Below are positions 13,930 to 36,061 of a stretch of 40,656 nucleotides of DNA, one piece after another (position 1 is the stretch's first letter; every line of letters starts with the position of its first letter). A program made the translations under genes and the position numbers. Under the pieces are notes generated by a model that was given only the letters and a program-made list of their open reading frames with translations, did not search any database and was not told the DNA's origin. The DNA lies in contig VMSU01000168.1 of NCBI GenBank assembly GCA_013792005.1, positions 1-40,656 on the forward strand. The letters are read 5' to 3'. Source of the stretch: Desulfobulbaceae bacterium (GTDB lineage: Bacteria > Desulfobacterota > Desulfobulbia > Desulfobulbales > VMSU01).

Positions 13930-16900
13930 TTATTCATTGGCCGGAGTAAACCAATTATACGTCTTGCCCTGAATGCTATGACAATTATATAAGCAATTTG
14001 TAGGACTGTTTCTGAGGCTGGAATAATTAGGTATATCCATGGTGCCATACTGGTCCTCTCCGACTGTATAACGATTGTATTGCATCTCGTCATAGACCCA
14101 TCCTGATTGTGTATTCGAGCCATGCACGTTGTGACAAGCAATGCAGGTTATTCCTGAATTTTGAATCGAATCTCTGTATGCCCAAGTCCCAGCTTGTGCA
14201 TGGAAGTAATGGAGATTAGAATATCCGGTCCAGAAGCCTCCATCATCGTAATTCTTTGCGCTTCCGTCATACCTATCTCTGAAATTCGTTTTAATATCTG
14301 TGATGTTATAAGGGGGTTGGCCATCGCCCCATGTATCGTAATGCCCACCACTCCTGTACCCCAAAACGGCCTCCTTGGTTATCCTCGGGTAGTTTTGATG
14401 GCAACTAAAGCACATCTCATAATGGCCTTCGTCCGTCAACGGATTGTAATAGGTACCTGGAGCGGGAAGAGTCAGGTTCTTACTTAGGAGCCCCACATTG
14501 TCAGAGCCATGGCCGTTTGAGTGGCAACCTGTAGTCGGATTTCCGTTCCCAAGACAGGTAAGACCCTGCTGCTTATGCCCGTAAGTCTTTTGCCAACTGG
14601 CCTTTACATCTTTGCTAGCCCTATAGGGAATAACACCGATTGTTGACCCGTCTGCAAAAGGACTCATATTGCCGTTTGCACCATTTGTATCATGACAGCT
14701 GAGGCAAAAATTCTCAGCGGTTGTCGGGTTGGCGGGATCATAGGCATATATTGCACCTGTGTCCGCATCCTTTAGCCTCACTGTACCCCCCATGTGCTGC
14801 AAGGTATCGTGACAGACCAGACAGGCGGTATTAGTGATCGGAGCGGTGCTGGAATTATACGTTACCCTGACCTGTATCCAATCCAAATGATTCGTGGTAG
14901 CCGGGGTAGAGGTAAAGTAATTCCGCACTCTCACCTTGAAGTTTGAGTTGCTCAATTTCGCGTTTTTCCATGTCGTACTCCATGTGAAATCTTTGAATTG
15001 GGTGGTTGCGGTATTTATTGGAAGATTAACAACCCCCTCGCCACTCCACGTTGTTCCCCCATCCCATGAAATCTGAATGATAAATTGCGAGGTTCTCGTT
15101 GTAGCAGCGGTATAAAATCCTGTAACGCCAATCTCTACTTTAGTTATAATCTGTGCATCACCAAGCAACGTAACGCCAAAGTTTTCATACAACTGGGTAT
15201 TGCCATCACTAGTGCAAGTTGCATAAATGCTATCGAGAGCATAGGCATTGGCCGGGTCGGTAAAACCACCTGTACCGGCTGTAGTCGCCGTCGGGTTCTT
15301 CACCGTGACCTGTCCTGCAACAGGTGTTGTAATATGGTGGGTTGTCTTTTTGAAATCTCCTCCCGTGCCAGTCCCGTTTCCATTGCTGTCAACGATCTGT
15401 CTCCTGCTGTCCATGACACCCTTATGACAGGAAAGACATTCGTTATAGGCAATATGGGTAGGTGTCGGGCCTCCCCAGGTTGCATCATCGTGGCAGGCAA
15501 TATTGCTACATGATCCACCGCCGGAGTTATAAGTGTAACTCAGAGTGCCAGCACTATTACCGATATCATACAGCTTATTTGCATGTTTCGTGGAATCCTT
15601 TATGGTATTGCCGGTCTCGGTCAAGGGCCAATGACACGCATTGCATTTAATATAAGAGTGAGCAGAGGCATTATGACTGTTGGCCTTTGGTGTGCCGTTT
15701 GGATATGATGGCCGTCCGGATGCATCTCCTCCGCCATGGCAACTGCCGCATGATGTAGCGCTTCCCCAGGCTGGTGAGGTGTTGGCAGCAATGCTTCTTG
15801 TCTCGCCAGTGTTTGTTGTGCCCCCTGTCCCATTGCTGTGACAATATACATTTGAGCAGCTACCATAAATATTGAGCATAATCGTGTCGCCGCTGTATAC
15901 AGCATCGCTAAGCCAAGGATATGTCCCGGTGTCGAAGGTGAAATCAGCTTGGTTGTTTACATGGAGAGGCTCGTAACCGTAATGGCAGAATGTGCATGAA
16001 AGGGCCAGCCCTCCGTTGGCAGAGCCCGCATGCTTTAGGTGGCTGCCTAAAGTCGGAGGGTTATCCGCTGTCGTCCCATGGCATGTGCCGCAGGCAGCAG
16101 TAGAAGGATTGTCCCACACAGGAGTTGTATTGCTGCCTCCGTCAGGCGCCATGGTTGAACCATGGCAGTAGGCACTACATGTCTTAGTGCCTACTGTCGT
16201 TATCACTGTGCCACCACTACTGTCATAGGCCACACTGGACTGACCGTCATAACTTCCCCCACTGTATGCTCCATTGAAAATGGAAAATCCTAGTGTGATG
16301 TTACCGTTATTATGGGTCGCTCCACTGCCAGCGCTGTTCTGGTGACAGGTACTACAGCTATACTTGACCGCATGCAGTTCATGGGCCCCTGCTGTCAAAG
16401 AGCCGGTTATCTTGCCGTTTAGCCAGACTAGACCATCAGGCTGGGCAGCCGTGTTGTTTACAGGCGGAAAACCGTGACAGGCATCACATGTGACCTTAAA
16501 CCCCTCTTTAGATAGGTGACATTGCGTGCAGCACGCCCCACTGTTGTGCGAAGCGCCGGTGCCGTCATTTTTATAGTATTTGGTCTCGGTGTGACACACC
16601 TGACAGATACCAGCCACAGCCATAGTGTCGTCTGTAAAGCCATTAGGATCAAAAAACTTCACCTCTCGGTCACCTTGAGATGTGGTAATCTTTTTCTTGA
16701 TCAACTGACCATAGATAAGGCCAAAGGACTTGCCGGCATCAGTCGAATTGATGATACCCTTGACGGTGATAACGCTATCGTTGGCGCTGATAACCTGGTA
16801 GGTGTTTTCGGCCCTACCGGTATTGACCACTAAGATCAGACCTCGCTCAAAATCGGAGTTGGCATTTTTATTACCCCAACGGCTGCGGTCGGTCCAGTCG

Positions 16901-17382
16901 CCGGTCTGGTTGTCAGGCGGGACGTTGCTGTAGGCGATATTTGTGGTGTCGGTGAGAGTGCCAGCGGTGATCGTGCCAATAGTGCCGTTGACTAGATAGA
17001 GCTCGGCCGGATAGGTTTGCGTGCTAGGGTCAATCCATGCCAATTGGCCTTGATAATGGGGATCGTGACAATCAATACAATTGGATTCCCAAACGCCATG
17101 CAGCGATGAGCCGATAACCGTGCTGGAGTGGGTGCGCTGCAAGGGTATTTCTGCCCTCGAGCCGTCATGACAGTTACTACAGACATTGTTGGCTATGGTG
17201 TCTTTGCTCGGGTTTAGGCTCTGGTTGATTGGCGAATACCGCCACCACAGGGAATAACTATGACAGGAACTACAATGCACATCGCTGATGCTATTATGAG
17301 GGGCATCAAGGACAGAGGCTGCCGAAGCCATTGATGCAAAAAAGATCAGGGCCATGGATACGATAATACTTTTCTTAAACAT
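13930..17382 (-). CDS. Large secreted multihaem cytochrome c, about 20 haem motifs
   Basis: An 1150-residue exported cytochrome. A signal peptide (MFKKSIIVSMALIFFASMASA) is followed by 16 CXXCH motifs, two CX3CH (CSAYCH, CLYNCH), two CX4CH (CSNVYCH, CSNIACH) and one long-spaced CX9CH candidate. The CX4CH...CXXCH pairing is the Geobacter-type GSu_C4xC__C2xCH pattern. The N-terminal module (about 20-290) has a DAPHN opening, SLWWRYSP and KFFDPNG, and is shared with the 1803-residue cytochrome at 22375. Residues about 695-845 have no haem and look like a beta-sandwich inserted into the haem array. The ATG at 17382 has AGGGGAA upstream; 18 further codons upstream fall in a repeat element and are not real. 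It is likely outer-surface or extracellular and involved in electron transfer to or from solids, partners or sulfur. The tetrahaem gene follows. Confidence 0.92.
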   Translation of the reverse strand: MFKKSIIVSMALIFFASMASAASVLDAPHNSISDVHCSSCHSYSLWWRYSPINQSLNPSKDTIANNVCSNCHDGSRAEIPLQRTHSSTVIGSSLHGVWESNCIDCHDPHYQGQLAWIDPSTQTYPAELYLVNGTIGTITAGTLTDTTNIAYSNVPPDNQTGDWTDRSRWGNKNANSDFERGLILVVNTGRAENTYQVISANDSVITVKGIINSTDAGKSFGLIYGQLIKKKITTSQGDREVKFFDPNGFTDDTMAVAGICQVCHTETKYYKNDGTGASHNSGACCTQCHLSKEGFKVTCDACHGFPPVNNTAAQPDGLVWLNGKITGSLTAGAHELHAVKYSCSTCHQNSAGSGATHNNGNITLGFSIFNGAYSGGSYDGQSSVAYDSSGGTVITTVGTKTCSAYCHGSTMAPDGGSNTTPVWDNPSTAACGTCHGTTADNPPTLGSHLKHAGSANGGLALSCTFCHYGYEPLHVNNQADFTFDTGTYPWLSDAVYSGDTIMLNIYGSCSNVYCHSNGTGGTTNTGETRSIAANTSPAWGSATSCGSCHGGGDASGRPSYPNGTPKANSHNASAHSYIKCNACHWPLTETGNTIKDSTKHANKLYDIGNSAGTLSYTYNSGGGSCSNIACHDDATWGGPTPTHIAYNECLSCHKGVMDSRRQIVDSNGNGTGTGGDFKKTTHHITTPVAGQVTVKNPTATTAGTGGFTDPANAYALDSIYATCTSDGNTQLYENFGVTLLGDAQIITKVEIGVTGFYTAATTRTSQFIIQISWDGGTTWSGEGVVNLPINTATTQFKDFTWSTTWKNAKLSNSNFKVRVRNYFTSTPATTNHLDWIQVRVTYNSSTAPITNTACLVCHDTLQHMGGTVRLKDADTGAIYAYDPANPTTAENFCLSCHDTNGANGNMSPFADGSTIGVIPYRASKDVKASWQKTYGHKQQGLTCLGNGNPTTGCHSNGHGSDNVGLLSKNLTLPAPGTYYNPLTDEGHYEMCFSCHQNYPRITKEAVLGYRSGGHYDTWGDGQPPYNITDIKTNFRDRYDGSAKNYDDGGFWTGYSNLHYFHAQAGTWAYRDSIQNSGITCIACHNVHGSNTQSGWVYDEMQYNRYTVGEDQYGTMDIPNYSSLRNSPTNCLYNCHSIQGKTYNWFTPANE

Positions 17383-17400
17383 TGTATTTCCCCTATCGTT

Positions 17401-17480
17401 GATGGTCTCACAAAAAGTCACGGGATGGCTAAGCAAAAGTGCGCTGCAACGCAGTAGGTCGGCCTTTTTGCGACGCCATC
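17401..17480. repeat. 80-bp element with terminal inverted repeats
   Basis: The block starts GATGGTCTCACAAAAAG and ends CTTTTTGCGACGCCATC, which are inverted copies matching at 14 of 17 positions. A smaller palindrome TGCG-CTGCAA-CGCA lies in the middle. It sits 18 bp upstream of the large minus-strand cytochrome start, inside its leader, and supplies a false N-terminal extension to that frame. It resembles short dispersed elements I associate with delta-proteobacterial genomes (recalled, not checked). No second copy was seen in this window. Confidence 0.6.
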
Positions 17481-22110: not shown

Positions 22111-22186
22111 GGAAACAATCATGCCAAACCCGTTGTAAAATGGGGACGGAAAGCCACGGGTCCATCGGGATAGCCGGGTTGCCTAC
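22111..22186 (+). ncRNA. GEMM-I cyclic-dinucleotide riboswitch aptamer
   Basis: The aptamer contains GCCAAACC, then a 6-bp hairpin capped by a GTAA (GNRA) tetraloop (22129-22144). The GEMM core GGGACGGAAAGCC (22143-22155, one base from the usual GGGACGCAAAGCC), a short TCC-atcg-GGA hairpin and the 3' strand GCCGGGTTGCC (22173-22183) follow. These are the hallmark pieces of the GEMM-I class, which binds c-di-GMP or, in Geobacter-type variants, 3',3'-cGAMP. It lies 190 bp upstream of a 36-haem cytochrome gene. Which ligand it binds cannot be decided by eye. Confidence 0.88.
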
Positions 22187-22214
22187 CAGAGAGATAGGAG
22201 CCCGGCTTTTTTTT
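22172..22214 (+). terminator. Riboswitch expression platform: intrinsic terminator
   Basis: AGCCGGG (22172-22178) pairs with CCCGGCT (22201-22207), and inside it CCTA (22182-22185) pairs with TAGG (22195-22198), followed by T8. The 5' arm is the aptamer's own 3' strand, so aptamer folding and terminator folding are mutually exclusive. Ligand binding should therefore release the terminator and turn the downstream operon on. Confidence 0.85.
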
Positions 22215-22374: not shown

Positions 22375-25300
22375 ATGAAAAATTTTAGCCTTTGCCTGGT
22401 CTTTGTCTTGCTAGCGCGGATTGCCACAGCGGCAGTGGTTGATGCCCCTCACAACGATACGAATAATATGGGCTGTACGGGATGCCATAATTATTCACTG
22501 TGGTGGCAGTATTCTCCGATGGAAAATGATCCTGCCCTGAGGGCGGGACAGATAAACACCATCTGCCTTAACTGTCATGGGACCAATGGCCCAGAGATCG
22601 CCGGGGTCGCTCACTCCAGTCTGGCTATGGGTAGTTTGCATCGAGATTCTCTTGGCGACTGGTCCCGGTTATGCACCGACTGTCATGACCCTCATTTTCA
22701 AGCACAACTCGATTGGCTGGGCACCGTCCCGGACTCCCAGCTCTATCTTGTCTCCGGTGATCTGACACCCTCATCTCTTGCTGTTCTTGGCGATGGCACT
22801 CCCGCCTCTCCGTATTCCACCACCTTTCAATTCTCCAATCTCTTGGCCAAGGCCAATTGGGACAATGCCACGACACCCTGGGCTTCCAAAAACGGCACCA
22901 CTGGTCGTGGATTGATTATGGTCATACCCTCGACCAACCCTGTGGCAAGCTTTGAAGTTACCGGCGTCAACAAGGCCAACAACTCAATCACTGTGAATGG
23001 CAAGGTCCCGAGCGCTTTTAATAGTGGAGGTCACTTCGGGATGATCTATGGTCAGTTGATCCGTAGCGAAATCGTTGGCCCCGCCGGCACTCATACGGTA
23101 AAATTCTTCGATCCCAACGGGGGGTTTGTCGGCACGGCGTCAAATGACGGCCTCTGCCAAGTCTGCCACACCGAGACCAATCACTACCGCTATGACGCCG
23201 TTGATGGGGCGACTGATCATCTTGATAAAATGGATGACAGGGGGGCCACAGGGGCTGCAAGCCGCTGCACCTATTGTCATAAACATGGACGAGGTTTTGC
23301 TCCGGGGAGTGATTCCGGCAAGCACCCCGATCATCTGGCCATGGGTGTTGCCTGCACGGTATGTCATATCCCAGGCGGCGGGGTCATGGATCCCCTTACA
23401 GCCGTCGGATGCAATACCTGTCACCACGATGGCCGAGGCGGTCCGCCCAACGATACTACCTACCGCCTGCATTGGAACGACCTCGATCCAACCTACTCAC
23501 TTAACTGCAACTCCTGTCACAGCGGACGGCTCGTCCTTGCCGACGCGGCAAATACCTTAAACTACACCCATCAAGCTGCCGACACCACGTGTGACACCTG
23601 CCATGACGGACGGGTGACGATTCAAGATGTGGTCAATACCGTTAATTACACCCACCAGCCGGGGGATACTCTTTGCGGTCAGTGTCATGATGGGTCCGGC
23701 CCTGGTTCGCAGACCGACTTCCGGGTAGGACCGGTAGGCATGCAGACCAACGGCCACACTCGATTGGCCAGTTCCAAGTGGATTCGTCAGTACACCTGTT
23801 CCTACTGCCACTATGACACCGTCGATGCTGCCGGTAACTCAAAGGCCGCCCATCTCAATTATGCCATCGATGTCAAAATCGATCCCAATCAGTGGGCTAT
23901 TGTCGGCATGCCTGCGCCCCAGTATGTCACCGCAACCAAGGTCTGTCGCAATGTCTATTGCCACAGCGACGGGACCACGGTCAATCCCGAAATGCGGGAT
24001 TATGCCTGGACTGGCGGGCATCAGGAGTGTAACGCCTGTCATGGACATCAGCCTTCGTCTGGGGGGTGTAATGCCTCTGGCTGTCACAGTGACGGCCGGG
24101 ACGGCACTTACTGGAACAAGTTCCCGGAGAAGCGCTGGCTTTCCGCTATGCCCATGTATCCTAACACCGGACCGCTCACTGACAAGGCCAATTCCCATTA
24201 CCGACACCTCTTTACCGGGTTTTCCTGCGACGATTGTCATGTCGGCACCATCAGCGGTGGTAGCTGTTTGAACTGTCATGACTCCATTATCCCCTCCATT
24301 AATATGACCGAGGATCAGCACATCAACCCGGCCCGACACGTCAATCGGGTCAAGAATGTCAACTTCAAGGACGGCGGCACCTATGACGCCGCCACCAAGA
24401 CCTGTAGCAACACGGTCTGTCATACCGGCTCTAACCCGCAGTGGGGCGGTTCGGTCCATGACGCGGTGGTCTGTCGAGATTGCCATGGCGCCACCAATGC
24501 CGATGTCGATGACTTTGGCAAGTTCAACAGCACCCGCGCTAAGATCAATCTTACCCAATGGGCTACTGCCGGTCATGGTCGACCGGGGGTGATTGATCCG
24601 GCTACCGGCAAGCCGGAACTCCAGACCAACCGCTATCCGTCCGGGAACCCCCCGGCTAACTTCCCAAGTAACGGGTGCTGGTACTGCCATGACTCTCAGG
24701 TTCTCCATCAGGATGAGGATCGCCCGTTCCGTCTGGTGGAGCACCAGCATTTCAAGCAGCGTTTCGAAAAGGAGTGTGTCTTCTGTCATATGCAGGGTCA
24801 GGACAGCGAGTGTCTGGGCTGCCATGACGCCGCAGAATCCCTGGCCCCGCAGCTCGGCGCCATCACCGGTTTGCCCGGAGTGGTCAATCCTCCCTATGTC
24901 ATTGCTCGGCCGGATCATAGCAGCTTCAGCGGCGGGTGCTCAGCCTCAGACTGCCATGTCGATGATGCGGCGACCCACAAGACCGATGCCGGAGTCTGGA
25001 CCGAGGAGAAGAAGGAGGATGTCAGAAACTCCTACCTGCAGATGGGGGTTTGTTTGATCTGTCATGACGACGACAACAGCGGCGAGTGTGCCGCTTGCCA
25101 TGTCGGACCGCAGTATGCCTTGGGGTATGATCCAGCAAACAATGACTCCGGCCTGGTGGGCAAGACCGTTGGCAGGATCTCGGCTCAAAGGGCCAAGGCC
25201 TCGTCCTTCCATTTCGGTTACAAACACTATCAGGACTACGAAGAGAGTCTGGCCGATCTGTTAGAGAGCGGCACAGTGACTCAGTCCTCCGCTTCTACCC

Positions 25301-27786
25301 GGGAGGTTATCGACACCAGCAAGGACTGGGCAGCGGATGCCTTTACCGGGCGGCGGGTGATGATGACCGGCGGGGTCAATGCCGGCCTCTCCCGGCCGAT
25401 TGTCAGAAATAGCGCCACTACCCTCATTGTGGCCCCGGCCTTTCCTGACGGCCAGCAACTGCACAGTGGAGACAGCTATCAGATCATGGATGTGGTGTGG
25501 AAGGGTGGCAAGTTTTGTTGGGACTGCCACGACCCTCATGGCGACAATAACATCTATATGATTCAAAACGAGGTGGCGACCCGAACCGATGGGGTTGTCG
25601 GCAAACCTATCGATCGTAAGCAGGTCTCTTTCATCCGCAAGAGCACGGGCCTCGATTACGTTCGGATCACCCCCAATCCGGCTACCGGTAAGTATGACGG
25701 GGTGTGCAATGTCTGCCATACCAATGCCGAGATGCACTACACTTCGACCAAAGGGGATAATCACAACTCGGGTCGGGTATGCACCGAGTGCCATGAACAT
25801 CGCTTCACCGACAGTCATGCCTCTGGTCAGCCTTGTAACACCTGCCACTCCAACCGGCCGGTGCCCCGTCATACCGGCTTCAGTCAGGCCCGAGACTGTA
25901 CCAAGTGTCATAAGGACGCCATCGGCGCCCGGATGAACATCATGAAGCAGTTTTCCGCCAAATCCCATCATGTGCAAGGCGATAAGGTCACTAACCGTCA
26001 TTGTTATGCCTGCCACTGGGAGGCGACCCCGGAGGGGTTGATCGATCTGGAGCACCATGCCGGCTATAATTACAAAACTTATGGCTCGGAGAAGAATCAA
26101 GCGGTCGAACTGGTTATTTGGCAGGCAGGGGTGCGGCCTACGACCTTTGACAATGACGGGGTGAACAACGACGATACCGCCGTCTCCTTCATGGCGGCCA
26201 ATGTCGATATCACCAAACCCGGCAAGACCATGGCGGGACAACGGATTGAGGTCAGCAAGGTTACTCCCCACTGTATTGGCTGTCATTCGGACCAGAACAA
26301 CGAGACCAGGCCATTCAATGTGGTGGACCCGGAACACGGGGATTGTAAGACCCCCCGTCAATACGCCTGGGACCGTTCCAGCATCGAGTCCCGTTATTCC
26401 GACCCCGGGACCGCCACCCTGGGCAAATACAACACCCCTAACGCCGCCAAGAAGCTGGTCACCAAGGCCTTCTCGGCCCATGGCAATGCGGTGGCCAATC
26501 AGGGCGGTCAAGATCCGGTCACCGGTGTTGATGGTACCACTCCCAATAGCCGGGGAGGTCTCTATAATGTCCAGTGTTTTGACTGTCATGCCTCCCACGG
26601 CTCGATGGTAGGCGGGATTACCTCAAGCTACACGACCTTCAATGGCACCAAAAATGGTGGCAATCTTAAGGAGACCCAGGCCGGTAAGGGCGGTTACCCC
26701 ATGAGCTACATGGCCACCGCCAATCCCAACCCTACCACGGTTAACCCGTATCAGGCCGGTGCCGGACAGTGCTTTGACTGTCATGAGACTGCGGTAAGCA
26801 ACACGCAGCTCAGCCCGGTATCCAAGTCCCCCTGGGGTTACACGGAGACCTTCGGCGCCACCGCCCCGATTAAGGAGTATCGGGATAACCCCCGCTTTTC
26901 GGGCTCCTATTCCGGGGCGAGTCAGTTCTCCTCTTATCGGGCAGGAAAGCGCACCCTAGGTGGCCACTTCAAGGCCTCTCATAAGAACCCTGAGTCTCCT
27001 AATTACGATACCAGCGGGGCCTCGGAGGTGACCGTGATGGGCACTATCGACGGACTGTGCACTCCCTGTCACGACCCGCATGGGGTCAGCCCGGCCTTGG
27101 GTAACAAAAAGCCCTATGCTCTGCCGATTCTCAAAGGGACCTGGCTCTCCTCGCCCTATAAGGAGGATGGTCCGCCGCTGGCAACCCCTACTTCGTTTGG
27201 TGATTACGATGACGGCTGGTCGTCAGGGGGCAGGCCCTATCCACAAAAACCTAATCCGCAACCGGCCGGGGTGTGGCGCACCGACCGCAACACCTTTAAT
27301 CTGGCTGATCTCAGTGTGGCGGGCAATTATCCGGTGGCTTACAGTCGAGTGAGCGAAGAGGCCGAGACCTTTGCCGGACTCTGCCTCAGCTGTCATGCCA
27401 AGGATACCCTGACCACTGAGGCCAGCGAGGTATCGACGGCCTCCATCCCTTGGGCGACTTCATCCCGCATTCATCGTTCAGTGAAGGGTTGGGGCTGGAA
27501 CGATGGCGAGACCCCTCGTGAACACTCTTATACCTGTTCCAAGTGCCATAAACCCCACGCCTCGGGTTTGCCCCGCTTGATGCAGACCAACTGCCTAAAT
27601 AGCACACACCGAGGGAAAGTGGTCTCGGGGGGGACCCCAGGGCGTGGCGACGCTGGTGAGTTTCCTCTTGGCTTTTATTATCCCAACTCCAATAACTGTC
27701 ATGCTGCCCCCACGGCCAATGGTGCGGCTGGTTGGCCTAACAACCAGCGCTGGAACCTGGTTACTCCCTGGACAGGAGGGCAATGA
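22375..27786 (+). CDS. Giant multihaem cytochrome c, 36 haem motifs
   Basis: An 1803-residue exported cytochrome with a signal peptide (MKNFSLCLVFVLLARIATAA). I count 32 CXXCH and four CX4CH motifs (CRNVYCH, CNASGCH, CSNTVCH, CSASDCH), the latter usually followed by CXXCH as in Geobacter-type proteins. Residues about 20-290 (DAPHN, SLWWQYSP, GLIMVIPS, KFFDPNGG, CQVCHTET) are paralogous to the minus-strand cytochrome. A 28-residue unit GR..(D)..NT(L/V)NYTHQ..DT.C..CHD occurs twice in tandem (bases 23524-23691). Residues about 960-1045 form a haem-free beta module. The C-terminus has two lone cysteines instead of a final CXXCH. No membrane anchor is visible, so it is probably an extracellular or surface electron-transfer protein. 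It is first in an operon behind the riboswitch; the next gene starts 1 bp after its stop. Confidence 0.95.
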   Translation: MKNFSLCLVFVLLARIATAAVVDAPHNDTNNMGCTGCHNYSLWWQYSPMENDPALRAGQINTICLNCHGTNGPEIAGVAHSSLAMGSLHRDSLGDWSRLCTDCHDPHFQAQLDWLGTVPDSQLYLVSGDLTPSSLAVLGDGTPASPYSTTFQFSNLLAKANWDNATTPWASKNGTTGRGLIMVIPSTNPVASFEVTGVNKANNSITVNGKVPSAFNSGGHFGMIYGQLIRSEIVGPAGTHTVKFFDPNGGFVGTASNDGLCQVCHTETNHYRYDAVDGATDHLDKMDDRGATGAASRCTYCHKHGRGFAPGSDSGKHPDHLAMGVACTVCHIPGGGVMDPLTAVGCNTCHHDGRGGPPNDTTYRLHWNDLDPTYSLNCNSCHSGRLVLADAANTLNYTHQAADTTCDTCHDGRVTIQDVVNTVNYTHQPGDTLCGQCHDGSGPGSQTDFRVGPVGMQTNGHTRLASSKWIRQYTCSYCHYDTVDAAGNSKAAHLNYAIDVKIDPNQWAIVGMPAPQYVTATKVCRNVYCHSDGTTVNPEMRDYAWTGGHQECNACHGHQPSSGGCNASGCHSDGRDGTYWNKFPEKRWLSAMPMYPNTGPLTDKANSHYRHLFTGFSCDDCHVGTISGGSCLNCHDSIIPSINMTEDQHINPARHVNRVKNVNFKDGGTYDAATKTCSNTVCHTGSNPQWGGSVHDAVVCRDCHGATNADVDDFGKFNSTRAKINLTQWATAGHGRPGVIDPATGKPELQTNRYPSGNPPANFPSNGCWYCHDSQVLHQDEDRPFRLVEHQHFKQRFEKECVFCHMQGQDSECLGCHDAAESLAPQLGAITGLPGVVNPPYVIARPDHSSFSGGCSASDCHVDDAATHKTDAGVWTEEKKEDVRNSYLQMGVCLICHDDDNSGECAACHVGPQYALGYDPANNDSGLVGKTVGRISAQRAKASSFHFGYKHYQDYEESLADLLESGTVTQSSASTREVIDTSKDWAADAFTGRRVMMTGGVNAGLSRPIVRNSATTLIVAPAFPDGQQLHSGDSYQIMDVVWKGGKFCWDCHDPHGDNNIYMIQNEVATRTDGVVGKPIDRKQVSFIRKSTGLDYVRITPNPATGKYDGVCNVCHTNAEMHYTSTKGDNHNSGRVCTECHEHRFTDSHASGQPCNTCHSNRPVPRHTGFSQARDCTKCHKDAIGARMNIMKQFSAKSHHVQGDKVTNRHCYACHWEATPEGLIDLEHHAGYNYKTYGSEKNQAVELVIWQAGVRPTTFDNDGVNNDDTAVSFMAANVDITKPGKTMAGQRIEVSKVTPHCIGCHSDQNNETRPFNVVDPEHGDCKTPRQYAWDRSSIESRYSDPGTATLGKYNTPNAAKKLVTKAFSAHGNAVANQGGQDPVTGVDGTTPNSRGGLYNVQCFDCHASHGSMVGGITSSYTTFNGTKNGGNLKETQAGKGGYPMSYMATANPNPTTVNPYQAGAGQCFDCHETAVSNTQLSPVSKSPWGYTETFGATAPIKEYRDNPRFSGSYSGASQFSSYRAGKRTLGGHFKASHKNPESPNYDTSGASEVTVMGTIDGLCTPCHDPHGVSPALGNKKPYALPILKGTWLSSPYKEDGPPLATPTSFGDYDDGWSSGGRPYPQKPNPQPAGVWRTDRNTFNLADLSVAGNYPVAYSRVSEEAETFAGLCLSCHAKDTLTTEASEVSTASIPWATSSRIHRSVKGWGWNDGETPREHSYTCSKCHKPHASGLPRLMQTNCLNSTHRGKVVSGGTPGRGDAGEFPLGFYYPNSNNCHAAPTANGAAGWPNNQRWNLVTPWTGGQ

Positions 27787-27787
27787 G

Positions 27788-30700
27788 ATGAGAGAGAACG
27801 CCCGTAACGGTCAAGGTGAGATATTGACAAGGAAGAGGAGAGAGGGGGCTGTTATGCGAATGGGAAGGCAACGAAATATCCTGGTCATGCTTTTTGGCCT
27901 GGCTCTGGTCTTGGTGGGCAGTGTCTCGTTCTCCCAGGCGGCAGGAGATCTCTTTATCTGGCAGTTCTCGCACAGTCAGCCCGGAATTCAGGAGGCTAAG
28001 GCCAGTGCAGTCGACTCGTTAGGTAATCTGGTTATCACCGGCTATACCAATAGTGGTGGTGATGACGATTGGTATACTATCAAGCTCAGCAGTGACGGCC
28101 AGAGCGTTTTGTGGACGGCTCGTTATGCTAACCCGCAGGGTGATGATCTTGCCGTTGCGGTGGCGGTTGATGGCAACGACGATGTGATTGTCACCGGGTA
28201 CGTTTTTAACGGGGTCAATAAGGATATCGCGGTCATTAAGTATGATGGGGCTAACGGTAACCAGCAGGGGGAGCCGTTTATTATGAATGGCGTGGCCAAT
28301 GGCGACGACCTGGCCCAGGCCCTGGCGGTTGATGCCTTAAATAATATCTATGTGGCCGGCTACTCCCATACCGGGACCAGCGCGGGGGATAACGCCCTCA
28401 TCTTCCGGCTCGGCCCTGGTGGCCCCAATCCGGACGGCACGCCCATCTGGCAGGTCAATTATAACGGAGCTGCCAATGGCGATGACCGTTTTACCACGGT
28501 CATCGCCGGGGTGAGCGGCATTGCCGTGGCAGGTCACAGCAGAGTCATGCATAGTGGCGGTCGTGAGGACTTTGATTATCTGACTATGAAGATCGATGCT
28601 ACCGGTACGACGCTATGGCAAAAGAATTATGATCACGGTTCTGAGAACGATCTGGCTTATTATGTCGGCATGGATCAGTTCGGCAACGTCATTGTCACCG
28701 GTGAGGTCCTGGCCGGGGGACAGCATGACATGCGAACGATCAAATACGCTGGGGGCGATGGCCAGCAGCTGTGGGCCAGGTCGTACAGCGGCGGCAGTCC
28801 CAATATCCCTCGGGGGTTGGTGGTCGATAGTGACGGCGAGGTCTATCTTGCCGGCAACACCTTTACCAACAACGGCAAGGATGACTTCTATACGGCGCGG
28901 TATGCCGGGGCCAGCGGGGTGGTGGTCTGGGAGAAGGTCTTTGATTCCGGGGCCAATAACTCCGATATCCCTCAGGCCTTAGCCGTGGATCAAACCGGCG
29001 GCCTCTATGTCACCGGCTATACCCACAAGGCGGTGGACGGGGACGATGATTTTCAGACCCTGAAGTACAATAAGGAAAATGGCAACCTGATCTGGCAGCA
29101 GGCTCAGGATGGACCGCCGGCTGGTGGCAATCAGCAGCCGGTGGGGGTGGCGGTGGCTCTTTCGATCACTGCCGACGGTAACGTTTACGTGGCCGGATGG
29201 TCCCAGATTGCGACCGAGGATCTGGATTACTATGCGGTCAAGTATAGTGCCGACCTCCTGAATTCGCCTACCGGCCTGATCTCAACCGTGGTGAGTCAAA
29301 CCAGGGTAGATCTCGTTTGGCAGGATAACTCTAACCCGCCCAACAATGAAGACACCTTCTGCGTTGAGCGCTGCCAGGGATTTGGCTGCGGTGATTTTGT
29401 CGAGATCACCTGTAGTGTCCCTCAGGACCAGACGACCTACAGCGATACCAGTGTCATCCGTGATATTTGGTATACATATCGACTAAAAGGCAAGAGCGTG
29501 GCTTTGGGCTACTCGCTGCCTACTGCTCCCTCCTCAGTCCTGACCACGGTGATCGACTATCCGGCCCCGGAGTGGCTCTATACCCATGATGGTGAAGGTC
29601 TTGACGATATGGCCAACGCCATTGCCGTGGGCAGCGACGATAACCCGGTGGCTACCGGCATGAGCGCCTCCGCCTATTCTCAGTACGATTACTATACCGT
29701 CAAGCTCGACCGGACCAACGCCGCTATCCCCCTGTGGATTGACGATTACGATGGGCCGGACGGTCAGGGCGACATGGGGATCTGCCTGGCAGTGGACAGC
29801 CATGACGATGTGGTTGTTTCCGGATTTTCGTCGATTGATGCTGGCCAAGGTGTCAACACCAACGATATCTTCACTATCAAGTACGCTAAGACCGGGCCCG
29901 ACCCCTACACCGGTTACCCGGTGTGGACCTCCCAGTACAATGGCCCCGGCAACGACGATGATCGTTCCACGGCAGTGGCGTCTGCGGCCGATAACACCGA
30001 TTTTACCGTGGTTACCGGTTACGGTAAGAACACTGACGGCAATGACGATATTTATTTGATCAAGTATAAACCCAATTATGATACAGCGGGTCAGGAGGTG
30101 TGGTCGATTGCCCCCTTCGATGGCGGCTTTAATGATTACCCCTCTGCCACGGCCTTTACCTTGGCAGGAAATGTGGTGGTGGTGGGTACGACGTATAACG
30201 CGGCCGGCGACAGTGATATCTTTATTAGTCAGTACCGAGGCAGTGATGGCACCCTGATGCCTGGTTGGCCCTATGTCCACGACTTCGGTAACGGGGTCGA
30301 CGGCATCAACGCCCTGGCGGTGGCGGAGGACGGGTCGATCTATGTGGCCGGCTACGCTAGAAATAGCGCCGGTAACGTCGATATTTACGTGAACAAGTTT
30401 GATCAGGGCGGCAGCCCGCAATGGGGGGGGGGGCAGATCATCGATGGCGCAGGCCACGGCTTTGACGAGGCCAGGGGGGTGATGATCGATCCCAATGATG
30501 GTGAGATTGTGGTTGGGGCAACCGTCACCTCGGCTTCTGGGAGTCTGGACTTCCTGGTGTTGCGCTTTACTGCGGACGGGACCCTTCGCTGGAGCAGAAC
30601 GCTCGATTTGGTGGAGCATGATGAGATTTTGCAGGGGATGACCATGTCGCCTTCGGGGGAGGTCTGTCTGGTGGGTGAGACGGATGATGATGTCGATACC

Positions 30701-33700
30701 GATGTCCTGGCGGTGAAGTACGACCATCTCGGCAACCTGATCGGTTCAACCCGGTTTGATCATGGGTATGATGATTTTGCTACCGCCATCACCGTTAACC
30801 GGCGGGGAGAGTTTTATGTCGCTGGGTATTCGGCTACCGGCCCCTTGGCCCACGATGATTATGACTTTGTGGTCTTTCGTTTCAACGGACAGGAGTTGCA
30901 AGCGCCATCCCCCCTGACCACTCACGTCCAGCATACGACGGTTGATTTGCTCTGGACGGAGAATGATCCCACGGTCAGCGGTTATAAGGTGTACCGGATC
31001 AACGGAACCTGCGCGGTGGGTGGTTCAAGCTTCAGCCCGGCGGACCTGATCCAGACTACGACCATGGTGACGACGGCGATCCATGATAGCGGGCTCAACA
31101 TCAACGCCACTTACTGCTATGGGGTGGAGTCGTACCGTAGCAGCACCGGCGAGGTGTCTCGAATGATTGAACGCCAGGTCACCACTACCGTGCCGGTCCC
31201 TCCGGATACTCTGGTGGCAACGATCAAGAATACCTCGGCGGTGGATGTCTGCTGGCATGATAACAGCAGTTCCGAGGAGGGATTCGAGGTGCAGCGCTGT
31301 ACAGGGGTTGATTGCGATTTTTCTGCAGTTACCTCCTTTTTAGTCCCGGCCGAACTGGATGGGGCGGCCGCCGCCACATGTATGGTAGACACCACGGCGT
31401 GTGATGCCGGGCAGGGCAAAGTGTTCAGGTATCGGGTCCAGTCCTATCTGGCAAATGCCTGGAGGAGTGCGTTTTCTCTGGCGACTCCTAGCGATACCGT
31501 CACCGTGCCTGGGTTGATGGCGCCCTCCTCCTTGCAGACCACTCAGGTGGTCGAGACCATGGTTAACCTGCAATGGACCGATAATACGGTAGATGAGTCG
31601 GATTTTGTGGTTGAACGTTGCTTGGGCGCGGATTGCAGCAATTTTAGCCAGGTGGGCGTCACCAGCGCGGTTACCTTTGCCGATGCCACCGTGCTTGCCA
31701 ACCAGACTTATAGCTATCGGATCAAGGCCCGCAAGCAGACTCCTTGCGGCGCTGACCTTTCTTCTCCTTCCCCTGCGATCATCGTGAACACCATTCCTCC
31801 TGTGCCTGCTTCCCTGGTGGCCACCGTGATCCGGCCCGGTGTTGTCTCTTTGGCTTGGACGCCGCAGACCACCACTCACTCCGGGTTCTCGGTTGAGCGT
31901 TGCGACGGGGCCGGCTGTACGGATTTTGCTCTCCTTGCCACTATTTCCAGCCCTACAGTCGCTAAATACACCGACACCACTGCCTGCTATGGCAGTGACG
32001 GCACTAACCGTTATCGGGTCACAGCCATTGGGGCGTGGGGTGCGTCAGCCCCCAGCGCCGCGGTTACTGCGGTAAGCGGCACCGGGGCGATCCCCATAAG
32101 CCTCAGCACAGTGACCACCGAGGCCAGCGTCAAGCTGAACTGGAGCTACACCGATGCCAATCGGGATGGTTTCATTATCGAGCGTTGCGCCGGTCCTGTA
32201 GCCACCTGTAATCAGAGTGACGCCAATTTTATTCAGGTCAGCGGTTCGCCCATTACCGGTGATGATGCTGCTCTGCAGGCCTTCTGGCACATGGATGAAT
32301 TGTCCTGGTCCGGGGCCGTCGGCGAGGTGATCGATAGTTCCGGCAAAGGAAACCATGCTACGGCGAGGAATGGCGCGGTTGCAGACAATCCGGGCAAAGT
32401 CGGTTCCGGCGCCGCCCTCCTGTCCGGAGTCGATTATCTCAGCACCGATCTCCTGGTCGATCAGGGTAACACTACCCCTGGGGCCACTTTCATGGCTTGG
32501 GTCTACCCGACCCTGCAGAACAACACCTATCAATACCTTTTCAGTACCGACAATGGTGGCGCGGACTGGGGGTTGAGTCTCAGAAACGGCTACTGGTATG
32601 TCGATACCGGCAGCACTGCCAATTACTATGCTACCTCCGCCACTATGAACACCTGGCAGCACGTGGCCGTAGTCTTCAATCCGGTGGTGGGGGTGCAGGT
32701 CTATGTTAACGGCATCTTGCGCAGTACCATCGCCAATATCGGTTTCGAAGAGAGTTCAAACCCGATGAATATCGGTCGGCGTCCCACGACCGGCGACTAT
32801 TTCACCGGTCGGGTGGATGAGGTGGCGCTCTTCAATCGGACCTTGACCAGCCAGGAGGTGACCCAGTATTACAATAATAGCCGTGTTTTCACCTTCATCG
32901 ATAGTGATGGCATCACTACCGCTACCACCTACAACTACCGGATTAAACCCGTGATCAATACCACCTGCGGGGACTGGGAGCCAAGGGTGGGCTTTGGGGC
33001 GGTGAGCGCTACCACCCCGACCGTGCCGTTGGCCCCGCTCTCCTTGACCGTGACCCAAAAGGGCACCACTGAACTTGGGCTGGCCTGGACCCCCAAGACC
33101 TCGAGTGAGTCTGGGTTTGTTATCGACCGCTGTCAGGGAACGGGTTGCGATTTTTCAACCATGGTCAGCTTCCAGGTTGGGGCTGGGATGAGTGCTTATC
33201 AGGATATCTCTACGTGTCAAGGAACGACTTATCGTTATCGGGTGAAGGCGGTGAAAGGGAGCGCCGCCCCCTGGGAGTGGGAGAGCCCATACAGCACAGC
33301 GGCGGAAAAGGCCACGGTGGCTGCTAATTCCGTGGCGCTTTTACTGAATGTGGTCTCTGAATCGGAGGTCACCGCCTCGTGGAGCGATGTCAACCCGGAT
33401 GAGGATAGTTACGAACTCTCCCGCTGCCTGGTAGTCTCCGGCATCACGGCCTGTGACCAGGATCATCACTTTACTGTCCTGGAGACTTTCCCGGGCACGG
33501 TATCCGGTGCCTTGCTCCATTATCGGATGGATGAGGCCCTGTGGAATGGTACCGCCAATGAGGTCAAGGATGTGGGCAACAGTAAACATGGCCGGGCCTA
33601 TGGCGGGGCGACTACGGCAGCCGGAGGCCGTTTTGGCCGGGCCGGGTCCTTTAACGGCACCACCGGTTATGTATACACCCCGTTGACGTTGGATCAGAAG

Positions 33701-36061
33701 CGGAACTCGCCAGGGGTGACTATGGAGGCTTGGGTCTATCCGACCATGACCGATACCAACCCGCGTAATGTCTTTTCTACCGAGAACGGCGGTTATGATT
33801 GGGGGATTGTTGCCTTGAACGGCAAGTGGTATGTCAACACCGGCTTGTCGCAATACTACACCGGTTTGACGGTGGAGTTGAACACCTGGCAGCATATCAC
33901 CGCCGTGTTCACCCCCTTGGTCGGCATCACCTTCTATAAGAACGAGCAGATGGTCTCTATTCCCGAGATCGATTACGACCTCTCGAGTGGGGCGTTTACT
34001 ATCCGTCGCCAGGCCAATAGCAGTTCAGCGCTTTACTACTTCAAGGGGATGATCGACGAGGTCTTAGTCTATGGCCGACCATTGACTGCGGCCCAGGTAA
34101 CGGACCACAACAGCTATCAGGAGCGGACCGCCTTCACTTATAGCGATACTGGGCTTGAGCAGGACAGTACCTATGTCTACCGGCTTAAGGCCAGCAAGGC
34201 GGCTGGCTGCGGGTGGAGCAAGGTGGCGACTGCCACTGCCGTTACCCCGGTGCTGCCACCTCCCACCAACTTGGCCATCACCTGTAACTCGACCAGGTGT
34301 ACGCTCGGGTGGATGGATAACAACGGTTCTGAGACCGGCTACGTGGTTAGCCGTTGTGAGGGGGGGAGCGGAGATTGCGGCACACCTGCATTGTTTAATC
34401 TGGGGGCGAACAGTACCGCCATGATCGATGACACGGTCTGCCCGAATACGGCTTACACCTATCGAGTCTGGGCCATAGGGGCTTGGGGTCAGACCACCTT
34501 TGTCGAAATGGGGAAGAGCACCTCGATCCCGCCGGTACTCTCCAGTTTGAATGCCAATCGGGTATCTGAGGTGGCGGTCGATCTCTCCTGGAGCTTTCAG
34601 TCGGCCGATGAGACCGGGGTCAGGTTGGAACGCTGCCTCGGGGCAAGCTGCGTCGAGGTGGACCTTCCTCCGGCGACCAAAGCCTACGCCGATGCCACTT
34701 TGATGGCCGACACCGAGTACTGTTATCGGGTCAGTGCCTATAAAAACGCCTCCTGCGGTTGGCAGACCGCCTTGATCGGGCCGGTCTGCCGGACCACCAG
34801 CCTGGTGGTCGGTGATTTGACCGTTACCCCTCAAAACACCACCACGGCTGCGTTGGCCTGGAGTGATACTTTCCAGACCGAGACTGTTTCGGTCGTGGAG
34901 CGGTGTAATGGGGATCTGGCCACCTGCTGCAACAATAACCCCGCAGTCTGCAACGGCACTTTTGCCAATATCGCTGAAGTAACAGCGAACAAGGTCTCCT
35001 ATACTGATACGGATCTCTGTGCCGGTACCCCTTACACCTACCGGGTCACCACCATGGATAAGGGCTTGAGCAGGGATAACAACGGCTGTTGGACCAGACG
35101 GGCACCGTTTACCTTTACTACCTTTCCGGCCAATACCGGGGTCGAGGTGGTAATTCCCTATAAGAGCGGGATGCGGTCCGACTTTGCCGATCTGCGGTTC
35201 TATGATACCACCGCCCATCGGGAGTTATCTTATCGGATCAAGCAGAAGGTCAACTCCTCCAGCGCCACCGTCTGGGTGAAGACCGGCAGCAAGGCTACGA
35301 TCTCTCTCTATTACGGTAATCTCAATGCCGGGGATAGCAGTGATGTCGGGGCCGTATCCACTGCCCAGGCGGGAGTAGCCAGTGTTAATTTCGCCGGCAC
35401 CGAGGGCGATGGCGTCACCTGTTTCACCTTCACCCACACTTGGGTTGCCCCTCCGACTTTGGCTGTTCAGGCCGATACCGCCGCGGCCATGGCTCCTACG
35501 GATTTGACCGCCACGGTGGGAGAAGGGAGTATCCTTCTCTCCTGGACCTCCGGGACCGGCGACGAGAGCGGGTTTCAGGTGGAACGGGATTGTGGCAGCG
35601 GTTATGTCCAGATCGGTCTCACCCCGGCGGGTGTCACTACCTTGAGCGATGAGACGTTCCCCAGTTCTGAGCTGTGCAGTTATCAGGTCAATGGGGCTAA
35701 ACAGGGGGCATGCCCCTGGACCTCCGCCCCGAGTAACAGTGTTCAACTCCTGGCGCCGCCTGAGACGCCGCAGGTTACCGCTACCCCGGAGAATGCTTTC
35801 TTGATCCGTTTGGATTGGACGGATGCCAGCGATGAGGAGGGGTATGACGTGGAGGTCAAGGTCTTCGGCGGAGTTTGGGTGCCGGTGATCGCTCTTGCCG
35901 CCGACCAGGTGAGCTTTACCGACACCGAGGGCATCAACCCTAACAGCCAGTACCTCTATCGAGTTCGAGCCCGTCGAGGGGCGGTCCACTCCGCCTGGGG
36001 CCAGGCAGCAGCTATTACCCCGGTCTATACAACCGGGGCGGCGACCTGTCCGTTGCCCTAG
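27788..36061 (+). CDS. Giant secreted beta-propeller / FN3 / LamG surface protein
   Basis: A 2757-residue exported protein. The ATG at 27788 has GGAGGG 7 bases upstream and is translationally coupled to the cytochrome; an ATG at 27854 would give a more ordinary signal peptide (RNILVMLFGLALVLVG core). Domains in order: a propeller of about eight W..Y..G.DD-type repeats (about 55-490), one FN3, a second eight-repeat propeller (590-1035), then about twelve more FN3 domains. LamG-like domains (about 1495-1700 and 1905-2110) each sit inside an FN3 domain, and a DUF2341-like domain lies near 2445-2560. Most FN3 domains carry a VERC-x(3-6)-C cysteine pair. No haem motif, protease motif, C-terminal sorting signal or TM anchor is seen. 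It is probably an extracellular scaffold or adhesin presented with the 36-haem cytochrome. Confidence 0.92.
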   Translation: MRENARNGQGEILTRKRREGAVMRMGRQRNILVMLFGLALVLVGSVSFSQAAGDLFIWQFSHSQPGIQEAKASAVDSLGNLVITGYTNSGGDDDWYTIKLSSDGQSVLWTARYANPQGDDLAVAVAVDGNDDVIVTGYVFNGVNKDIAVIKYDGANGNQQGEPFIMNGVANGDDLAQALAVDALNNIYVAGYSHTGTSAGDNALIFRLGPGGPNPDGTPIWQVNYNGAANGDDRFTTVIAGVSGIAVAGHSRVMHSGGREDFDYLTMKIDATGTTLWQKNYDHGSENDLAYYVGMDQFGNVIVTGEVLAGGQHDMRTIKYAGGDGQQLWARSYSGGSPNIPRGLVVDSDGEVYLAGNTFTNNGKDDFYTARYAGASGVVVWEKVFDSGANNSDIPQALAVDQTGGLYVTGYTHKAVDGDDDFQTLKYNKENGNLIWQQAQDGPPAGGNQQPVGVAVALSITADGNVYVAGWSQIATEDLDYYAVKYSADLLNSPTGLISTVVSQTRVDLVWQDNSNPPNNEDTFCVERCQGFGCGDFVEITCSVPQDQTTYSDTSVIRDIWYTYRLKGKSVALGYSLPTAPSSVLTTVIDYPAPEWLYTHDGEGLDDMANAIAVGSDDNPVATGMSASAYSQYDYYTVKLDRTNAAIPLWIDDYDGPDGQGDMGICLAVDSHDDVVVSGFSSIDAGQGVNTNDIFTIKYAKTGPDPYTGYPVWTSQYNGPGNDDDRSTAVASAADNTDFTVVTGYGKNTDGNDDIYLIKYKPNYDTAGQEVWSIAPFDGGFNDYPSATAFTLAGNVVVVGTTYNAAGDSDIFISQYRGSDGTLMPGWPYVHDFGNGVDGINALAVAEDGSIYVAGYARNSAGNVDIYVNKFDQGGSPQWGGGQIIDGAGHGFDEARGVMIDPNDGEIVVGATVTSASGSLDFLVLRFTADGTLRWSRTLDLVEHDEILQGMTMSPSGEVCLVGETDDDVDTDVLAVKYDHLGNLIGSTRFDHGYDDFATAITVNRRGEFYVAGYSATGPLAHDDYDFVVFRFNGQELQAPSPLTTHVQHTTVDLLWTENDPTVSGYKVYRINGTCAVGGSSFSPADLIQTTTMVTTAIHDSGLNINATYCYGVESYRSSTGEVSRMIERQVTTTVPVPPDTLVATIKNTSAVDVCWHDNSSSEEGFEVQRCTGVDCDFSAVTSFLVPAELDGAAAATCMVDTTACDAGQGKVFRYRVQSYLANAWRSAFSLATPSDTVTVPGLMAPSSLQTTQVVETMVNLQWTDNTVDESDFVVERCLGADCSNFSQVGVTSAVTFADATVLANQTYSYRIKARKQTPCGADLSSPSPAIIVNTIPPVPASLVATVIRPGVVSLAWTPQTTTHSGFSVERCDGAGCTDFALLATISSPTVAKYTDTTACYGSDGTNRYRVTAIGAWGASAPSAAVTAVSGTGAIPISLSTVTTEASVKLNWSYTDANRDGFIIERCAGPVATCNQSDANFIQVSGSPITGDDAALQAFWHMDELSWSGAVGEVIDSSGKGNHATARNGAVADNPGKVGSGAALLSGVDYLSTDLLVDQGNTTPGATFMAWVYPTLQNNTYQYLFSTDNGGADWGLSLRNGYWYVDTGSTANYYATSATMNTWQHVAVVFNPVVGVQVYVNGILRSTIANIGFEESSNPMNIGRRPTTGDYFTGRVDEVALFNRTLTSQEVTQYYNNSRVFTFIDSDGITTATTYNYRIKPVINTTCGDWEPRVGFGAVSATTPTVPLAPLSLTVTQKGTTELGLAWTPKTSSESGFVIDRCQGTGCDFSTMVSFQVGAGMSAYQDISTCQGTTYRYRVKAVKGSAAPWEWESPYSTAAEKATVAANSVALLLNVVSESEVTASWSDVNPDEDSYELSRCLVVSGITACDQDHHFTVLETFPGTVSGALLHYRMDEALWNGTANEVKDVGNSKHGRAYGGATTAAGGRFGRAGSFNGTTGYVYTPLTLDQKRNSPGVTMEAWVYPTMTDTNPRNVFSTENGGYDWGIVALNGKWYVNTGLSQYYTGLTVELNTWQHITAVFTPLVGITFYKNEQMVSIPEIDYDLSSGAFTIRRQANSSSALYYFKGMIDEVLVYGRPLTAAQVTDHNSYQERTAFTYSDTGLEQDSTYVYRLKASKAAGCGWSKVATATAVTPVLPPPTNLAITCNSTRCTLGWMDNNGSETGYVVSRCEGGSGDCGTPALFNLGANSTAMIDDTVCPNTAYTYRVWAIGAWGQTTFVEMGKSTSIPPVLSSLNANRVSEVAVDLSWSFQSADETGVRLERCLGASCVEVDLPPATKAYADATLMADTEYCYRVSAYKNASCGWQTALIGPVCRTTSLVVGDLTVTPQNTTTAALAWSDTFQTETVSVVERCNGDLATCCNNNPAVCNGTFANIAEVTANKVSYTDTDLCAGTPYTYRVTTMDKGLSRDNNGCWTRRAPFTFTTFPANTGVEVVIPYKSGMRSDFADLRFYDTTAHRELSYRIKQKVNSSSATVWVKTGSKATISLYYGNLNAGDSSDVGAVSTAQAGVASVNFAGTEGDGVTCFTFTHTWVAPPTLAVQADTAAAMAPTDLTATVGEGSILLSWTSGTGDESGFQVERDCGSGYVQIGLTPAGVTTLSDETFPSSELCSYQVNGAKQGACPWTSAPSNSVQLLAPPETPQVTATPENAFLIRLDWTDASDEEGYDVEVKVFGGVWVPVIALAADQVSFTDTEGINPNSQYLYRVRARRGAVHSAWGQAAAITPVYTTGAATCPLP

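Follow-up and report, generated by a model that had tools for sequence, protein, structure and literature searches.

The window, a stretch of 40,656 nucleotides from a Desulfobulbaceae bacterium, was analysed around a gene for a giant multihaem cytochrome. A riboswitch with an overlapping terminator precedes this gene, and a second, even longer gene follows it on the same strand. The features are as follows.

22113..22186, + strand: c-di-GMP-I (GEMM-I) riboswitch aptamer (Rfam RF01051; 62.9 bits, gathering score 35)
22172..22214, + strand: intrinsic terminator AGCCGGG...CCCGGCT followed by T8 (stem z -3.2 to -3.4)
22375..27786, + strand: predicted secreted multihaem cytochrome of 1803 aa with 36 predicted haem sites
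22375..22431, + strand: putative Sec-type signal peptide MKNFSLCLVFVLLARIATA, from sequence inspection
22474..25101, + strand: dense haem array of the N-terminal part (haems 1-24 in residues 34-909; one haem per about 36 residues)
22699..23061, + strand: first haem-free beta module, set between haems 3 and 4 (residues ~109-229; AlphaFold2, pLDDT mostly 75-90)
25222..25494, + strand: second haem-free beta module (beta module 2), set between haems 24 and 25 (residues ~950-1040; AlphaFold2)
25516..27549, + strand: looser haem array of the C-terminal part (haems 25-36 in residues 1048-1725; one haem per about 56 residues)
26344..26346, + strand: codon of C1324, the cytochrome's only conserved free cysteine, which tends to be present or absent together with the terminal cysteine of the partner
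27592..27702, + strand: conserved Cys/CH dyad C1740-X34-C1775-H1776, a candidate unconventional 37th haem site or a disulfide
27854..36061, + strand: partner, a predicted secreted protein of 2735 aa with delta-60/SBBP beta-propeller, FnIII, laminin-G and DUF2341 domains, ending in ...TCPLP

The cytochrome and its haem motifs

The cytochrome frame starts with ATG and is closed by a single stop. The sequence-only reading had counted 36 predicted haem sites, and the same 32 CXXCH and four CX4CH motifs (CRNVYCH, CNASGCH, CSNTVCH and CSASDCH) were recovered directly in this one frame. For a chain with 76 Cys and 92 His per 1803 residues, about 0.2 CXXCH would be expected by chance compared to the 32 observed, and none was found in the other five frames of the region 22375-27786. 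Long antisense ORFs within the gene were taken as mechanical. Inspection of the N-terminus revealed no lipobox. The protein combines what defines a c-type multihaem cytochrome, namely multiple CXXCH/CX4CH motifs kept by selection and an export signal; that the motifs carry haem is predicted from them.

In Pfam and NCBIfam, the models that score above their cut-offs include Cytochrome_C7, Cytochrom_c3_2 and the CX4CH/CXXCH domain of Geobacter; Pfam matches in the N-terminal array are to Cytochrome_C7, Cytochrom_c3_2, GSu_C4xC and MtrC/F II-IV. In a PDB profile search the N-terminal half resembled UndA and other multihaem proteins; the C-terminal half had no relative among solved structures. The AlphaFold2 models of the two halves are weak (pTM 0.61 and 0.37). 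Haem-free beta modules had also been proposed from the sequence, and two of them are borne out by confident prediction, with pLDDT values mostly of 75-95. A fold search with the weak models gave no match below E 0.001. Its best matches cover beta module 2 only, which bears a weak likeness to phage tail-tube and baseplate beta domains (best E 0.01).

A second multihaem cytochrome is encoded at 13930-17436 (- strand) of the window. It contains 16 CXXCH, two CX4CH and three CX3CH motifs, shares its N-terminal domain with the 36-haem protein, and ends in CX3CH.

Conservation, the giant partner and the cysteines

A search of named genomes yielded 78 loci of the cytochrome family, which belong to Geobacter and its relatives, to Desulfobulbaceae and Nitrospirota, and to other Deltaproteobacteria. 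At the level of higher taxa these are Geobacterales, Desulfobulbales and Nitrospirota; homologues occur both in Geobacteraceae MAGs and in isolates, among them Geobacter sp. OR-1. Of the named records, the Desulfobulbaceae MAG STD1_110 is the closest, and the window's own genome harbours a full-length paralogue that is 76% identical. In a phylum-wide sample of 297 genomes, the core was detected at E<=1e-100 in seven, one of them the window's own, and its distribution is therefore patchy. The family is real and widespread, though patchy.

Haem sites 12-36, all four CX4CH motifs among them, are invariant across the 45 homologues compared (45/45), which argues that these columns are under selection as haem sites. 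Sites 1, 2, 4, 5, 9 and 10 are absent from many of the homologues. Outside the motifs, the invariant His residues are numerous enough for most core haems to be bis-His ligated. Residues 1167-1799 also stand alone as 8-haem proteins in Geobacter.

The partner gene starts 67 bases past the cytochrome stop, and both proteins carry signal peptides. The pairing was observed directly and is constant: in 51 of 51 assessable loci a haem-free beta-propeller/FnIII protein of 2000-3400 residues comes after the cytochrome on the same strand. These loci were drawn from 60 cytochrome frames longer than 900 aa, nine of which were left out where the DNA ends. The partner follows directly in 50 of the 60 frames; in L083 a frameshifted cytochrome precedes it. 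In a set of 58 relatives, the partner was matched at E<=1e-60 solely in genomes with the cytochrome. An apparent fusion of both proteins (5812 aa, L147 in genome G017) was rejected as an artefact, its frame crossing assembly N's.

The partner's domains are of the adhesion type, and by its sequence it looks adhesin-like. In related giant cytochromes of the genus, Calx-beta domains lie within the same chain as the haems, which ties haem arrays to adhesion-type domains independently. One publication mentions Geobacter, multihaem cytochromes, fibronectin and adhesin (PMC6199725), and the cytochrome-partner pairing may have been noticed before.

Outside the haem motifs, C1324 (43/45), C1740 (43/44) and C1775-H1776 (44/44) are conserved. 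C1324 is replaced by Tyr in L048 and L060, by Asn in L087 and by Ser in L172, and in the same four loci the C-terminal cysteine that the partner conserves elsewhere is lost as well. Partnerless relatives with sufficient downstream DNA never have a Cys at this position. One exception is L046, which retains C1324 next to a partner without the terminal cysteine. On the tree the C1324 trait changed four times, and three to four independent pairs all point in the same direction; the sign test yields p 0.25, and with so few independent events significance is unreachable. The covariation is suggestive of an intermolecular disulfide between C1324 and the C-terminal cysteine of the partner. An intramolecular C1324-C1740 disulfide was rejected, as these two residues do not co-vary.

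The C1740/C1775-H1776 site was not on the motif list of the sequence-only reading. Its two cysteines are found as a pair with a spacer that varies between 25 and 74 residues, and C1740 is missing in one homologue (L085); the CH dyad is present in every homologue that reaches that far. OmcZ has a haem site with a 14-residue loop at its subunit interface (PMC9473688), and the preserved dyad suggests a comparable long-loop haem site here. Alternatively, C1740 and C1775 possibly form a disulfide.

The riboswitch and its terminator

The aptamer ends 188 bases upstream of the cytochrome ATG and is the only RF01051 match found in the genome, with 150 of the 236 first-look candidates scored. AGCCGGG is at once the 3' strand of the aptamer and the 5' strand of the terminator, so that the two structures are mutually exclusive; the full leader folds into the terminator. 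In pilM of G. metallireducens, a cGAMP ON switch, aptamer and terminator likewise share a strand (PMC9262584). By the same logic, ligand binding should prevent termination, and the riboswitch is predicted to be ligand-ON.

The match and the overlap can be read from the DNA itself; the nature of the ligand is predicted from one base. The position that aligns with G20 of Vc2, which in this numbering we take to be the selectivity position, is a G, and c-di-GMP rather than cGAMP is therefore predicted. Accordingly, the riboswitch probably senses c-di-GMP, a 'stick to surfaces' signal.

A sister genome shows the same sharing of a strand between aptamer and terminator. Its only c-di-GMP-I riboswitch precedes a different giant cytochrome that shares the N-terminal domain (L148:3049-13155, G002:C7), a protein of 3369 aa with 31 CXXCH motifs and then 13 Calx-beta domains. 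Neither the 76%-identical paralogue nor six homologous loci (L041, L045, L046, L050, L053 and L055) have a riboswitch at gathering score upstream, which makes riboswitch control lineage-specific. Elsewhere in the window, at 5711-7891 (- strand), a GGDEF-EAL protein (identified by eye) adjoins a periplasmic binding protein; its presence fits c-di-GMP signalling.

Proposed function and comparison with known systems

We favour, with moderate confidence, the interpretation that the cytochrome is an extracellular electron conduit, induced by c-di-GMP and held by its giant adhesin-like partner as a tether. An electron-transfer role is expected by analogy with the protein family, and the cytochrome probably passes electrons to targets outside the cell. 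The 36 haems would form a long row of redox centres in each chain, 24 of them tightly packed and 12 in the looser conserved module. As the sequence-only reading suggested, such a chain could by itself be a wire of tens of nanometres or serve as a polymer subunit. Cytochrome and beta-propeller/FnIII partner would be made as a two-gene unit, which the riboswitch would turn on at high c-di-GMP, i.e. in attached cells. The partner probably serves as an anchor that attaches the cytochrome to the surface of the cell, to a mineral or to another cell, and a disulfide from C1324 to the partner's C-terminal cysteine may provide the link. Counting against a conduit at the outer surface, no MtrB/PioB-type porin was found in the genome.

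Three other roles were weighed against the tethered conduit. The cytochrome might be a periplasmic electron store, monomeric and soluble, that buffers electrons once acceptors are exhausted, as has been described for GSU1996 and the 27-haem GSU2210 (PMC10138318). The dense N-terminal packing of haems and the lack of a lipobox or visible surface-sorting signal are in line with such a store. However, a capacitor in the periplasm would have little use for a constant adhesin-type partner, and the TIGR04257 triheme 'nanowire' domain stays far under its cut-off (16.9 versus 40 bits); we consider this role unlikely. A shade less probable still is a subunit of an extracellular filament that polymerises head-to-tail like OmcS, OmcE or OmcZ. 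It could draw on the C-terminal haem module, which also exists as a separate 8-haem protein, and on the long-loop CXnCH-like motif near the C-terminus, which recalls the interface haem of OmcZ (PMC9473688). Yet filament subunits have 4-8 haems, whereas the chain here has 36 haems in 1803 residues and is accompanied by a giant partner; the C-terminal half has no sequence match to any solved structure, and the fold searches gave no meaningful match.

A multihaem redox enzyme, such as a nitrite, sulfite or tetrathionate-type reductase, is highly improbable. Profile similarity to NrfA-type reductases and weak sub-cut-off matches to DmsE-type proteins point in this direction, but these matches look compositional, and the supply of invariant non-motif His for bis-His ligation is the pattern of electron transfer.

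A bolder version of the tethered conduit is put forward tentatively, and we regard it as rather doubtful: a covalent two-protein device, in which a conduit of 36 (perhaps 37) haems with a long-loop CX(25-74)CH site is disulfide-bonded through C1324 to the giant tether and switched by c-di-GMP. If this were true, attachment and outward wiring would be expressed together.

For most giant multihaem cytochromes, motif counts are all that is known. The family studied here offers testable handles on function: a core of 25 invariant haem sites, a giant partner that is constant, a candidate disulfide between the two proteins and, in this lineage, one riboswitch that would couple expression to c-di-GMP. 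It would reveal how very large cytochromes are kept outside the cell, and when cells produce them.

The host is a sediment bacterium. Two dsrA genes score above cut-off in its genome (G000:C231 and C28; L162 and L163), which indicates a sulfur-cycling organism. The genome also encodes larger haem arrays. A 4466-aa ORF without N's (G000:C22:8645-22042, L157:146-13543) contains 110 CXXCH and two CX4CH motifs and a C-terminal Calx-beta domain, and the gene after it opens with a further haem array, of 65 motifs or more. A 2225-aa ORF with 64 CXXCH (G000:C133:192-6866, L158) lies upstream of the 76%-identical paralogue. The 112 motifs of the largest ORF exceed the 86 haems published for a protein of electroactive bacteria (PMC12133095) and come near the 113 of the protein called the record in 2020 (PMC7082337); proteins with more than 100 haems have been published (PMC11495043). 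The sequence-only reading rightly placed the 36-haem cytochrome among the larger multihaem cytochromes, but in view of the 112-motif frame in the same genome its haem number is not exceptional. The partner, the riboswitch and the cysteine covariation go beyond that reading. The 86-haem D. acetexigens and 113-haem Methanoperedens cytochromes are single-chain giants too, with more haems; unlike the protein studied here, the latter is fused to an S-layer domain.

No named full-length family matched the 36-haem cytochrome. The Geobacter cytochrome model TIGR01904 (GSu_C4xC__C2xCH) matches above its curated cut-off (45.2 versus 27 bits) and likewise has a CX4CH followed by a CXXCH, as a domain-level model that covers only part of the chain. 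The resemblance to MtrC, MtrF and UndA is looser: the Pfam MtrC-MtrF II/IV match is weak (30.8 versus 30 bits for the whole protein, with no single stretch passing), and UndA gives a profile match with E 1.5e-12. These proteins have 10 haems, in contrast to 36 here, where both the lipobox and MtrA/MtrB neighbours are lacking. OmcN had been considered as a named relative with 34 haems and was dropped, since PMC6013743 gives 24 haem sites and no relation was shown. With OmcS, OmcE and OmcZ the far larger cytochrome shares a possible extracellular role and, with OmcZ, the long-loop CXnCH-like site; no sequence or fold relation was detected, the weak models leaving the fold test little power.

The 16-haem/26-haem operon of SEEP-SRB1, also from Desulfobacterota, likewise places a large multihaem cytochrome beside a beta-propeller protein (PMC5539420). 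That operon comprises a six-bladed propeller, a PPIase and a second cytochrome (PMC5539420), whereas here a single cytochrome has only the propeller/FnIII/LamG giant adjacent on its strand. GEMM-I control of electron-transfer genes in Geobacter employs the same aptamer class and the pilM-like terminator logic. Many of those examples sense cGAMP, in contrast to the c-di-GMP predicted here from the G. Taken together, the protein is a real giant cytochrome, mid-sized for its class, and its interest comes from the partner, the riboswitch and the cysteine covariation.
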